Assembly (NCBI GenBank): GCA_026981635.1
Contig: JALSIF010000258.1
Span: 1 to 11,969, forward strand
Direction of reading: 5' to 3'
Length of the DNA: 11,969 nucleotides
Origin: JALSIF01 sp026981635 [NCBI: bacterium]
Lineage (GTDB): Bacteria > 4484-113 > JALSIF01
Positions 1 to 9,734 of the stretch are shown here, piece by piece. The first letter of the stretch is position 1; each line of letters begins with the position of its first letter. The notes under the pieces are model-generated. The model saw only the letters and a program-made list of their open reading frames with translations. It ran no database searches and was not told the origin of the DNA. Position numbers and translations under genes: made by a program.

Positions 1-1148
1 AGCCGGTGGAGAAGGGAGACCTTTCCATCCTGGTACAGGCAACCGGCACGGTTGAACCCATTGACCTGGTCAAGGTGAAGGCGGAGGCCTCCGGCAAGAT
101 CGTGGAGATGAACGTGGAGGAGGGCCAGTTCATTGAAGCGGGGACGGTGATTGCCCGCCTTGACCAGACCGACCAGCGCATCGCCCGCGACCGGGCCAAG
201 GTAGCGGTGGAGCTGGCCAGAAAGGAGCTTGAACGCATCCGCCAGGGGCAGAACCCGGCCAACCTGCGCGCGCTGGAGAATGCGGTGGAGACCGCCCGCC
301 TCAACCTGAAGAACGCCCGCGACAGCTATGAGCGGATAAGAGAGCTCCACGAGCAGGGTTACGCCAGCGACCAGGAACTTGACAATGCCAAGCACCAGCT
401 ATCCCTCGCCGAGGAGCAGCTTAAGAAGACAGAAGAGGACCTGCGCCAGGCCCAAAGCTTTGACCTCAGGCAGGCGGAGAGGCTGGCTGAACTAAGGCTC
501 AAGGACGCCCTACTGGCCCTGGATCAGGCTGAACGCCAGCTGGGCAAGTCAACCGTCATCGCCCCCATCTCGGGGACCATACTCAAGAAGTTCGTCAGCG
601 AAGGAGACACCGTGCAGTCCTCCCTCTCCAGTTTCACCGAGGGAACCACCATCGTCACCATGGCAGACCTAACCGCCATCCAGGTGAGGGCCGATGTGGA
701 TGAGGTGGACATCGGGAGGGTAAAGCCCGGCCAGCGGGTGGAGGTCTCAAGCGACGCCTACCCAGGAGAGGTCTTCCCCGGCAAGGTCAAGCGGGTGCTC
801 CCCCAAGGGAAAAACATCCAGGGGCTGGTGAGCTTTGAGGTGATCATTGAGCTTGAAAATCCCGAACTTAAGCTCATGCCGGGAATGACGGTTGACTGCG
901 ACATCTACGCCGAGGAGCTGAAGGACGTACTGCTGGTTCCCTTTGAGGCAGTGAGGGCTGACGAGGACGACAACCCCATCGTCTATGTGTGGAGCGACGA
1001 GGGCAAGGAACCGGAGAAGCGCAGGGTGGAACTCGGCGCAACCGACTACGAAAAGATCCAGATCATCAGCGGAGTGAAGGAGGGGGAGCTGGTCCAGGTG
1101 GAGCACCTGCCCGAAACCCTCACCCTGAGCTTCACCGCCGGGGGCTAG
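1..1148 (+). CDS. Periplasmic adaptor subunit of an ABC exporter (MacA/HlyD family), 5' end missing
   Basis: This is a membrane-fusion (adaptor) protein that bridges an inner-membrane exporter and an outer-membrane channel. The reading frame is open to the left edge, so the N-terminal membrane anchor or signal lies outside the window. The GTG at position 6 is probably internal, because the text GDLSILVQATGTVEP matches the segment just after the anchor in MacA. Numbering from that GTG, residues about 20-55 form the first lipoyl half (ASGKIVEMNVEEG). Residues 57-180 form a long charged coiled-coil hairpin. Residues 181-225 form the second lipoyl half (TVIAPISGTILKKFVSEGD). Residues 225-300 form a beta-barrel domain and 305-380 the membrane-proximal domain. 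The hairpin tip carries R110-x3-L114-x6-S121, the RLS pattern that contacts TolC-type channels. Two permease genes follow 34 bp downstream on the same strand. The substrate is unknown. Confidence 0.9.
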   Translation, partial: PVEKGDLSILVQATGTVEPIDLVKVKAEASGKIVEMNVEEGQFIEAGTVIARLDQTDQRIARDRAKVAVELARKELERIRQGQNPANLRALENAVETARLNLKNARDSYERIRELHEQGYASDQELDNAKHQLSLAEEQLKKTEEDLRQAQSFDLRQAERLAELRLKDALLALDQAERQLGKSTVIAPISGTILKKFVSEGDTVQSSLSSFTEGTTIVTMADLTAIQVRADVDEVDIGRVKPGQRVEVSSDAYPGEVFPGKVKRVLPQGKNIQGLVSFEVIIELENPELKLMPGMTVDCDIYAEELKDVLLVPFEAVRADEDDNPIVYVWSDEGKEPEKRRVELGATDYEKIQIISGVKEGELVQVEHLPETLTLSFTAGG

Positions 1149-1182: not shown

Positions 1183-2517
1183 ATGAAGAGAGCGAAGCCA
1201 ACCGGTCCAACCGCTGGCCTCCTAGGTCTTCTTATCAGGAGCCTGGCGGTGGGCAGGTTCACCCTCACCATCGCCGCCCGCAACCTCACCGCCAACCCCA
1301 TGCGTAGCCTGCTCACCTCCCTCGGGCTTCTCATCGGGGTCTCCGGGGTGATCGCCATCGTGGCGGTGGGCGAAGGGGTCAAGGCCTACTTCCGCAGAGA
1401 GCTCAGTCAGCTAGGAAGCAATTTAATGTTTATAATACCCCAAGCAGAAATGGAAGAAGGAAGACTGCTCCAAGTGGCAAAAAAATTTAAGAATGAAGAT
1501 ATTAATTTTTTAAATTTAAACTCAACCACAACTCTAATTGTCTATGGAGCTAGCCAAACTGAGGTACTGGTAAGAGCTAAAGGAAGAAGTCGAAATGTAG
1601 ATATAACTGGTGGAAATCCAGTTAGTGCCGAAGTACTTGATCTTAAATTTTCTCATGGTAGGATGTTTAACCACAGCGAACACCGCAACCGGGCTAAAGT
1701 AGCCGTTTTAGGGAACAAAGTTAAGCAGTGGCTCTTTCCTGGGGTTAGAGACCCAGTGGGTGAGACGATAAGAATCAAGGGGGTCAATTTCAAGGTTATC
1801 GGGGTGGTAAAGCCCCGCGGTCGCATCGGGGGTTCTCCGGATTGGGACAGAATCATATTTATCCCTCTGCCCACCTTTCAGGCCTACATCTCGGGCAAGG
1901 ACGAGGTGGAGTGGATTACTGCGGCGACCAAAACTCCCGAGGAGCTGGGGGTTTCCTCCAACCGGGAAGCCATCAAACTGGCCGAGGCAGAGCTGACCCG
2001 TCTGCTCAGGGTTAAGCGAAAGATTAAGAACCCCTCCAAGGATGACTTTCTCATCCTCACTCCGACCGATTTCCTGGAGTTTGGCGACACCTTCTTCAAC
2101 ATCCTCATCATAGTCTTCGGGGTGGTGGCCATGGTGGCGCTGGTAGTGGGCAGCATCGGGATCATGAACATGATGCTGGTCTCGGTGAGTGAGCGCACCC
2201 GCGAGATCGGGCTGCGCAAGGCGCTGGGGGCTACCCGGCGAAGCATAGTCCTCCAGTTCCTGCTGGAGACCTCCTTCCTTACCCTGACCGGCGGCCTGCT
2301 GGGTCTGCTGGTTGGCTACGCCGCCGGCGAGCTGCTCTCCCTGTGGCTCTCCAGCACCGGCATCTTCTCCGGTGAAGACATCTTCCACGCCGCCATCCCC
2401 CTGCCCTACATCCTCATCACCCTGGGGGTCTCGGTGAGCGTAGGCATCGGGGCAGGCATCTGGCCAGCCATCAAGGCGGCCACCTTGGACCCCATTGAGG
2501 CGCTGAGGTACGAATAG
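1183..2517 (+). CDS. MacB/FtsX-type ABC transporter permease, first of a tandem pair
   Basis: This 444-residue inner-membrane permease has the MacB layout without an ATPase domain. A cytoplasmic N-terminus leads into TM1 at about 44-64 (LLTSLGLLIGVSGVIAIVAV). A large periplasmic domain covers about 65-300, and TM2-TM4 lie near 305-330, 355-385 and 405-430. The segment SERTREIGLRKALGATRRSI (336-355) after TM2 is the family's conserved coupling region for the ATPase. The usual C-terminal signature (PAIKAATLDPIEALRYE) is present. The ATG start is preceded by no strong ribosome-binding site. Bases coding for about residues 80-166 are strikingly AT-rich and use codons such as AGA, TTA, AAA and ATA, unlike the rest of the gene. 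The reading frame stays intact. It lies 34 bp after the adaptor and 7 bp before a second permease, so co-expression is likely. Substrate unknown. Confidence 0.9.
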   Translation: MKRAKPTGPTAGLLGLLIRSLAVGRFTLTIAARNLTANPMRSLLTSLGLLIGVSGVIAIVAVGEGVKAYFRRELSQLGSNLMFIIPQAEMEEGRLLQVAKKFKNEDINFLNLNSTTTLIVYGASQTEVLVRAKGRSRNVDITGGNPVSAEVLDLKFSHGRMFNHSEHRNRAKVAVLGNKVKQWLFPGVRDPVGETIRIKGVNFKVIGVVKPRGRIGGSPDWDRIIFIPLPTFQAYISGKDEVEWITAATKTPEELGVSSNREAIKLAEAELTRLLRVKRKIKNPSKDDFLILTPTDFLEFGDTFFNILIIVFGVVAMVALVVGSIGIMNMMLVSVSERTREIGLRKALGATRRSIVLQFLLETSFLTLTGGLLGLLVGYAAGELLSLWLSSTGIFSGEDIFHAAIPLPYILITLGVSVSVGIGAGIWPAIKAATLDPIEALRYE

Positions 2518-2524
2518 CTAGCCA

Positions 2525-3874
2525 ATGGGCGGGAAAAAGCGGCAGCGGGAAAGCACTGACTCCCCGCCGGGGGGTGGATCGGGCCGCCGGTTGGGCACCC
2601 TATTTGCCACCCAAGCCATCCTCATAGACAACCTGCGCATCTCCCTGGAAAGTCTCTTTCGCAATCGCCTGAGGAGCTTTCTCACCCTGCTTGGACTCTT
2701 TATCGGGATCGGGGCGGTGGTTACCATCATGAGCGCCGGCGAAGGACTTAAAAACTACTTCCGCAGCTACACCGAAAAGATCGGTGAAAACACCCTCTAC
2801 GCCATCCCTGCCCGCATCTCCCTGAGTGGCCGGATCAACCGGGAGGCCAAGGCCTTCAAGCTGAGGGATGTGGCCTTCCTGAAAAACAACGCCACCACCC
2901 TGAAGCAGGTGGAGGGCCTGGCCATGGGTCAGACCACCGTCAAGTTCCACAATAGGACCCGCCTCTACCCAGTCTTTGGCGTTGAATCAAGCTTCTGGGA
3001 CTTTGAACAGATTGATATCGTCAGGGGGAGAAACTTCAACCCCGGCGAGATGAAGAGTGCTGCCCGGGTGGTCATCCTGGGCAGCAAGGTGCCCGAAGAC
3101 CTCTTCCCCGAGAACCTTGACCCCGTAGGTGCCTCCATCAAGATCGGCGGCGAGGACTACCTCGTGGTGGGCCTGCTGGAAGAGGTAGGACAGCGGGGCT
3201 CCTTCAACGTGGACAAGAGCCTCTACCTTCCCCTCTCCACCGTCCAGCAGAGGATTCTGGGCAGCGACGAGATAGTCACCATCTACCTCAAGACCAAGTC
3301 CCCCGAGCAGCTGGGGGTCTCAACCTCCAAGCAGGCGGTGGAGCTGGCCAAGGCAGAGGTGACCCGCTTGCTGCGCATCTCACGACGCATCAGAGACCCC
3401 TCCAAGGACGACTTCATCGTCATGGACATCGCCGCCTTCGTTGACTTCGCAACTCAGTTTGTCAGCGTATTAGTAATCGTTTTCGGGGTCATCGCACTCA
3501 TTGCTTTGATTGTGGGGGGGGTGGGAGTCATGAACGTGATGCTGGTATCAGTAACCGAACGGGCGCGAGAAATCGGCCTGCGCAAGGCCATCGGCGCCCA
3601 CCCGCTGGTCATCATGACCCAGTTTCTGCTGGAGGCGGGCATCCTCTCCCTGGGCGGAGGGCTGGGGGGAATCATCCTGGGCTATCTGGGGGGTTGGGGG
3701 CTGGCCGCCTTCCTCAGCAACCTGCCCGGGGTGACCGAGCAGATCGTTCCCGCCATTCCTCTGGATCAGGCCCTGCTTGCCACCGGGATTGCGGTGGCGG
3801 TGGGCATCATCTTTGGCACCTGGCCAGCGGTAAGGGCCGCCCGGCTTGACCCGGTAGTAGCGCTGAGAAACTAG
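2525..3874 (+). CDS. MacB/FtsX-type ABC transporter permease, second of a tandem pair
   Basis: This 449-residue permease is a paralogue of the gene just upstream. A hydrophilic, Arg/Gly/Ser-rich N-terminal stretch of about 30 residues precedes TM1 (about 52-72). A periplasmic domain covers about 75-308, and TM2-TM4 lie near 312-340, 366-396 and 415-435. The coupling motif TERAREIGLRKAIGAHPLVI (344-363) and the C-terminal end (WPAVRAARLDPVVALRN) match the family. Both permeases share the stretch around PEQLGVST, EVTRLLR and DPSKDDF in the distal periplasmic domain, supporting origin by duplication. The two probably form a heterodimer, which is an inference. The ATG start lies 7 bp after the previous stop and has no good ribosome-binding site, so it may depend on coupled translation. 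Its TAG stop overlaps the stop of the convergent hydrolase gene. Confidence 0.9.
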   Translation: MGGKKRQRESTDSPPGGGSGRRLGTLFATQAILIDNLRISLESLFRNRLRSFLTLLGLFIGIGAVVTIMSAGEGLKNYFRSYTEKIGENTLYAIPARISLSGRINREAKAFKLRDVAFLKNNATTLKQVEGLAMGQTTVKFHNRTRLYPVFGVESSFWDFEQIDIVRGRNFNPGEMKSAARVVILGSKVPEDLFPENLDPVGASIKIGGEDYLVVGLLEEVGQRGSFNVDKSLYLPLSTVQQRILGSDEIVTIYLKTKSPEQLGVSTSKQAVELAKAEVTRLLRISRRIRDPSKDDFIVMDIAAFVDFATQFVSVLVIVFGVIALIALIVGGVGVMNVMLVSVTERAREIGLRKAIGAHPLVIMTQFLLEAGILSLGGGLGGIILGYLGGWGLAAFLSNLPGVTEQIVPAIPLDQALLATGIAVAVGIIFGTWPAVRAARLDPVVALRN

Positions 3875-9659: not shown

Positions 9660-9734
9660 TCGGGGAGGCGGGATTCGAACCCGCGACCTCCAGCACCCCA
9701 TGCTGGCGCGCTAACCTGGCTGCGCCACTCCCCG
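9660..9734 (-). tRNA. tRNA-Pro (anticodon GGG)
   Basis: The minus strand folds into a full cloverleaf of 75 bases. It has an acceptor stem CGGGGAG/CTCCCCG (7 bp), a D arm GCGC/GCGC and an anticodon arm CCAGC-ATGGGGT-GCTGG with GGG at positions 34-36. A 5-base variable loop and a T arm GCGGG-TTCGAAT-CCCGC follow. C1-G72 and A73 (complement of T at 9660) are the bacterial proline identity features. CCA is not encoded, since the next bases are CTT, so it must be added enzymatically. It reads CCC and CCU codons. It lies tail-to-tail with the OsmC-family gene and downstream of panB. Confidence 0.96.

Follow-up and report, generated by a model that had tools for sequence, protein, structure and literature searches.

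The locus and its AT-rich tract

The window, i.e. the whole stretch of DNA analysed (11,969 bases), belongs to a fragmented assembly of 1,745,230 bases in 317 contigs with an estimated completeness of 85%. A periplasmic adaptor gene is followed by two tandem permease genes, the first of which (p1) contains an AT-rich tract. The only Rfam match in the window was a tRNA gene. The features are as follows:

6..1148, + strand: HlyD/RND-type periplasmic adaptor, upstream of p1, starting at the contig edge, of ordinary GC content
1183..2517, + strand: p1, the first MacB-type permease (444 amino acids; MacB_PCD at residues 42–253, FtsX at 314–437)
1405..1668, + strand: AT-rich tract in p1, codons 75–162 (two-state model, codon profile, composition, edge fit)
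1669..1827, + strand: 3' margin after the tract, codons 163–215, of intermediate GC content (0.528) (codon profile, composition)
2525..3874, + strand: p2, the tandem paralogue of p1 (449 amino acids; MacB_PCD and FtsX), without the dip
9660–9734, − strand: tRNA gene

The p1 protein is predicted to be a MacB-like permease, with a periplasmic core domain followed by an FtsX-like C-terminal domain, both above the Pfam cut-offs (MacB_PCD, PF12704, 129.1 bits against 27; FtsX, PF02687, 74.3 bits against 25.5). Residues 27–442 matched MacB (PDB 5nik), which shares both domains; in contrast to MacB, the tandem permeases p1 and p2 lack an ATPase domain within the chain. The MacB equivalog model (NF007826), which requires an ATPase fused in front, gave 189.2 bits against a cut-off of 966. 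Because of this score, and because the match started only at MacB residue 257, p1 is best described as a separate-subunit relative of MacB, not MacB itself.

The GC content of p1 was 0.692 at positions 1261–1380, 0.358 at 1441–1680 and 0.492 at 1681–1800, in agreement with the values counted by hand in a sequence-only reading of this DNA (approximately 69%, 36% and 50%). That reading had also described an unbroken reading frame and a switch in codon choice, and both were confirmed, with AGA, TTA, ATA and AAT in use in the patch. It had placed the patch at residues 80–166; the patch is real, but the limits set by a two-state codon model (codons 75–162, log-likelihood score 78.4) lie slightly upstream. 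Over these approximately 260 bp the GC content was 0.35, with 0.49, 0.35 and 0.20 at first, second and third codon positions (GC1, GC2 and GC3), and GC3 was approximately 80% on either side. In ten-codon steps, GC3 was 0.8–1.0 for codons 21–70, 0.5 for 71–80, 0.0–0.3 for 81–160, 0.8 for 161–170, 0.3 for 171–180 and 0.6–1.0 from codon 181.

In 2000 shuffles of the codons within p1, the maximum score was 26.0, compared with 78.4 observed. The fall in GC3 in p1 (0.61) was the largest among the 246 sampled genes of the same genome with 240 codons or more (median 0.11, 95th percentile 0.31). The tract is bounded and its signature is unlike that of both flanks, as expected of a recombination mosaic. 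As the sequence-only reading had stated, p2 had no dip (GC3 of 0.78 in the columns matching the tract), and a dip was found in none of 17 aligned permeases from nine genomes of the same class.

A step was the best fit at both edges of the tract (codons 75 and 159). A gradual recovery on the 3' side had been proposed, and approximately 50 codons of intermediate GC content do follow the tract, but the step at codon 159 fitted as well as any slope tried. Within the tract, GC3 was independent of column conservation (0.19 in 16 conserved codons, 0.17 in 69 variable codons), i.e. the tract was contiguous, which favours recombination. In the 3' margin, GC3 was lower in conserved columns (0.45) than in variable ones (0.72). 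Codon selection tied to conservation was rejected, as the whole-gene correlation of GC3 with column conservation was just 0.11 in p1 (p 0.03; p2: −0.11) and conserved and variable columns of the tract were alike.

Origin of the protein encoded by the tract

The sequence-only reading had further proposed that a periplasmic module from a low-GC relative was recombined into p1, which could change the specificity of the permease. For such a module no support was obtained. When residues 72–190 of p1 were searched against 385 genomes, matches of any kind occurred in 80 of them, the own genome included. The best non-self match was p2 (49 bits), followed by six genomes of the same class, the sixth of which had an E-value equal to that of one genome outside the class.

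Trees were constructed with 19 permeases, namely p1, p2 and 17 from the nine same-class genomes. In the tree of the patch (residues 79–166), p1 and p2 were sisters (81/83; 71/81 with a mixture model) and adjoined one group of family f2 (80/84; 81/87). They were sisters again in the C-terminal tree (residues 167–444; 98/96; 96/93), in which their position among the groups was weakly resolved. The N-terminal tree (residues 25–78, 54 columns) gave no resolution (4/0 for p1 with p2); with FastTree, these 54 residues of p1 grouped with an f4 gene (0.706) and those of p2 with f2 genes (0.721). Both genes form long branches, which can attract each other, and in the patch tree the p1 branch was no longer than that of p2.

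Phylogenetic conflict between the tract and its flanks was thus not found in the two trees with resolution, and with the present sampling none would be expected from a donor of the same lineage. The sequence-only reading had named two observations that together would speak against a replacement, namely the same tree for all segments and a dip shared by close relatives. The two resolvable trees did agree, but no relative showed the dip.

In the tract columns, p2 had a GC1 of 0.51 and a GC2 of 0.39, close to the values of p1. The GC1 of p1 was the lowest of the 19 permeases and that of p2 the next lowest, the other 17 ranging from 0.56 to 0.66. The fraction of AT-coded amino acids in the p1 patch was within the range of the homologues, and that of GC-coded amino acids (G, A, R, P) was at its low edge (0.21; others 0.21–0.36). 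The shift is therefore mainly at third positions, though not purely synonymous. The mean identity of the patch to the genes of other genomes was 0.219 for p1 and 0.224 for p2. Since its matches, trees, GC1, GC2 and identity resemble those of p2, the amino acid sequence of the patch looks native and no more diverged than that of p2.

The nearest permease in the same-class genomes was 43% identical to p1. None of the 40 nearest genomes searched belonged to the own family, and the nine same-class genomes are from other families. Among the same-class loci and stretches, all with a GC content of 0.54–0.64, no AT-rich donor or relative of the own lineage was found. As a source of the AT-rich codons by gene conversion, p2 was rejected, being GC-rich in the same columns. 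Seven stretches of viral contigs matched a pattern of the patch and none was a relative. In plasmids, 586 records matched the whole permease, all with less than 60% identity; the ten of these that were listed were ABC permeases at 33–36% identity.

AT-rich tracts in other genes

The own genome contains at least six more such tracts, which lay beyond the sequence-only reading. The two-state codon model was applied to 76 unmasked contigs (525,626 bases) with 421 genes of at least 150 codons; a quarter of the own-genome contigs examined (25 of 100) consisted entirely of N and were unusable (all under 3,000 bases, the longest 2,982). Internal tracts scoring above 40, a threshold chosen after the scores were known, were present in seven of the 421 genes, with weaker ones trailing below. 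Besides p1, the scan detected:

L140, 6696–8525: ClC channel with CBS domains, tract at codons 178–372
L191, 8022–9176: Na/Ca exchanger, tract at codons 65–278
L182, 3230–4687: TrkA-Usp protein, tract at codons 181–323
L123, 2–1378: helicase fragment at a contig edge, tract at codons 331–389
L193, 901–4071: AcrB-type RND pump, tract at codons 297–369
L178, 4211–5065: CheR methyltransferase, tract at codons 171–207

The tracts of the seven genes were approximately 110–640 bp long. Membrane transporters are encoded by four of the genes, p1 included, and a TrkA-like protein by one more; the other two, CheR and the helicase fragment, are non-transporters. Resampling of synonymous codons in the 421 genes (20 replicates) gave a maximum score of 15.5, and with codons shuffled within genes, the scores at ranks 5–11 averaged 33.9 to 14.3, compared with 110.8 to 41.3 observed. 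The seven tracts have 14 edges, and at each of them the best slope gained at most 2.5 log units over a step. On the left side of the Trk and helicase tracts the fit tended toward a slope (gains of 2.2 and 2.5).

Four more ORFs were low in GC over more than 80% of their length (L148, 622–2484; L180, 4967–5749; L116, 6079–7170; L284, 697–1449) and look like ordinary acquired genes. One encodes a DpnII-type restriction endonuclease and lies next to a DNA methylase gene that is partly low in GC; another encodes a class II glutamine amidotransferase. The Pfam search with the L116 ORF gave no match.

As a control, 305 genes (399 kb) from five same-class genomes were scanned in the same way. The highest score was 26.9 and none exceeded 40, i.e. 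0 of 305 genes compared with seven of 421. By hand arithmetic, the chance that all seven tracts fall in the own genome at random is approximately 0.02 ((421/726)^7, for 726 genes). This control is weaker than it appears, because in two of the genomes (G003 and G009; 105 genes, GC3 of 0.68–0.70) no more than two or three of the seven tracts would have exceeded 40. In the remaining three genomes (200 genes) all seven would score 39–114, and restricting the arithmetic to these 200 genes gives approximately 0.07. The control stretches were from a few large contigs and not matched in gene content.

The origin of the encoded protein was examined for the p1, exchanger and ClC tracts. For the exchanger tract, matches were obtained in six of the nine same-class genomes and in no genome among the 375 others. 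GC1, GC2 and the amino acids of this tract fell within the range of the homologues or at its very edge, the shift being mainly at third positions. In the ClC tract the amino acids were clearly AT-shifted; as tract and flank alike matched genomes outside the class better, this gene is uninformative on origin. Within the class, the TrkA-Usp protein gave only partial matches.

In p1, the exchanger and ClC the tracts were located in less conserved parts. Measured as identity to the own genome's protein, windows of equal length scored lower in 3% (p1), 12% (exchanger) and 14% (ClC) of cases; among the 17 relatives of p1 alone, 11% of windows were lower. Breakpoints were not concentrated in conserved blocks (six breakpoints in three genes, mean percentile 0.54). 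The ratio of patch to flank identity was lowest for the own genome in p1 (10 rows), the exchanger (7) and ClC (6); both ClC comparisons leave out one relative (L206) whose reading frame aligned only from residue 161. An acceleration of the p1 patch due to the dip was rejected, because p2, which has no dip, was equally low in the patch columns. We read the low ratio of p1 as probable isolation of the lineage, a reading for which the p2 control applies to p1 alone.

Proposed recombination tracts and alternative explanations

Because the protein encoded by the tract looks native and similar tracts recur in a few other genes of the genome, the dip looks like patchy recombination or local drift in composition and not like a swapped-in foreign part. 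We hypothesize, with moderate confidence, that it is a homologous recombination tract. A segment of p1 would have been exchanged for its counterpart in the same gene of a close, AT-richer relative, which belongs to the own lineage but has not yet been sampled. The contiguous tract, its step edges, the native protein, the AT-rich third positions and the similar tracts elsewhere in the genome fit this hypothesis. The replacement proposed in the sequence-only reading thus stands in part: the step edges and distinct codon usage of the tract agree with recombination with a more AT-rich allele, whereas the import of a foreign module is unsupported. Both the event and the identity of the donor we infer from these features.

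Lateral transfer of gene fragments, in which exchange is not bound to whole genes or domains, was described by Chan et al. 2009 (PMC2639706). As far as its accessible text goes, the breakpoints there are likewise inside genes and inside domain-encoding regions. They were, however, detected within orthologous gene sets, in contrast to p1, in which the resolvable trees agree and the tract is marked by base composition alone.

Several observations argue against recombination. Neither a donor nor an AT-rich relative of the lineage turned up in the genomes searched. The breakpoints lie outside conserved stretches, where homology-dependent crossovers would be easier, and the tracts tend toward variable parts of the proteins, as drift predicts. 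The AT-shifted amino acids of ClC, the low GC1 of p1 and the lean toward a slope on the left side of the Trk and helicase tracts also count against it. The grouping of p1 with p2 might reflect long-branch attraction, and the FastTree N-terminal placements split the two genes.

The missing AT-rich relative and the position of the tracts in variable stretches leave room for local decay, an explanation we consider unlikely but still a serious one. The tracts would be the genome's own DNA in fast-evolving parts of genes, where a GC-raising force (biased gene conversion or selection) is absent and synonymous sites have become AT-rich. The native proteins and mainly third-position shifts of p1 and the exchanger, the less conserved location in all three genes examined, and the occurrence in several genes of one genome but in none of the 305 of five relatives are consistent with it. 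Edges that fit steps are not, nor is a p1 patch branch no longer than that of p2; moreover, just seven of 421 genes were over the threshold, though variable regions are common. Studies of bacterial GC-biased gene conversion and AT-biased mutation (Weissman et al. 2019, PMC6867656; Ely 2021, PMC8153448) provide a frame for synonymous sites turning AT-rich where the GC-raising force is missing. In their accessible text these studies concern GC at the genome level, unlike the short tracts inside single genes described here.

We regard a chimera of assembly or binning, in which reads of a low-GC relative from the same sample were joined into the contig, as improbable. The fragmented and incomplete state of the assembly speaks for it. 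Each tract would, however, require two in-frame joins at homologous positions, where few shared k-mers are to be expected, and such paired joins would be required in all seven genes; the grouping of the p1 patch protein with p2 also speaks against it.

That p1 acquired a periplasmic module from a distant organism of low GC content, with altered specificity for substrate or partner, is quite improbable. The AGA, TTA, ATA and AAT codons would suit such a source, and several unrelated low-GC loci fitted the tract about as well as the low-GC ORFs of the own genome. The best matches of the patch were nevertheless the own paralogue and same-class genomes, the patch and C-terminal trees kept p1 and p2 as sisters, GC1 and GC2 were near those of p2, and the viral contigs held no relative of the patch. 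Neither the p1 nor the exchanger tract appears to encode a protein closer to a distant lineage than to the own class. Codon usage was rejected as a pointer to the donor: the tracts, which had been picked for AT-richness, fitted each other or the low-GC ORFs better than the host, and unrelated low-GC loci were similar.

It is very improbable that synonymous codons were under selection or that the tract carries an overlapping signal (regulatory RNA, internal promoter or translational pause); the mainly third-position shift and a possible enrichment of membrane transporters (four of seven, with one TrkA-like gene) would agree with it, but there was no Rfam match inside the tract, the two promoter-like sites in 1100–2600 were both outside it, p2 and the 17 relatives have no dip, and CheR and the helicase fragment are not transporters.

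Since p1 groups with its own paralogue and mainly third positions have moved, a dip in composition within a gene need not signal a foreign protein module. A limited literature search, based on partial texts, yielded no paper noticed to describe sharp AT-rich tracts that recur within native genes, and this does not prove that none exists. We suggest, with low confidence, that this lineage carries many sharp AT-rich tracts in native genes, with little change in the proteins. It would then be a natural experiment: over a few hundred bases, whatever holds GC high would be off or reversed. If so, a comparison of strains could separate biased gene conversion from selection and from mutation. If reads and strains bear out the recurrence, it would make a useful lineage for studying what sets the GC content of bacteria.

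The consequences for annotation are small, p1 being an ordinary permease whose protein is expected to work like its paralogue and relatives. An insert near p1 residues 250–263 (window positions 1930–1990 and 3300–3350) was common to p1 and p2 and absent from all 17 aligned same-class permeases, which suggests that the two genes arose by duplication within the own lineage.
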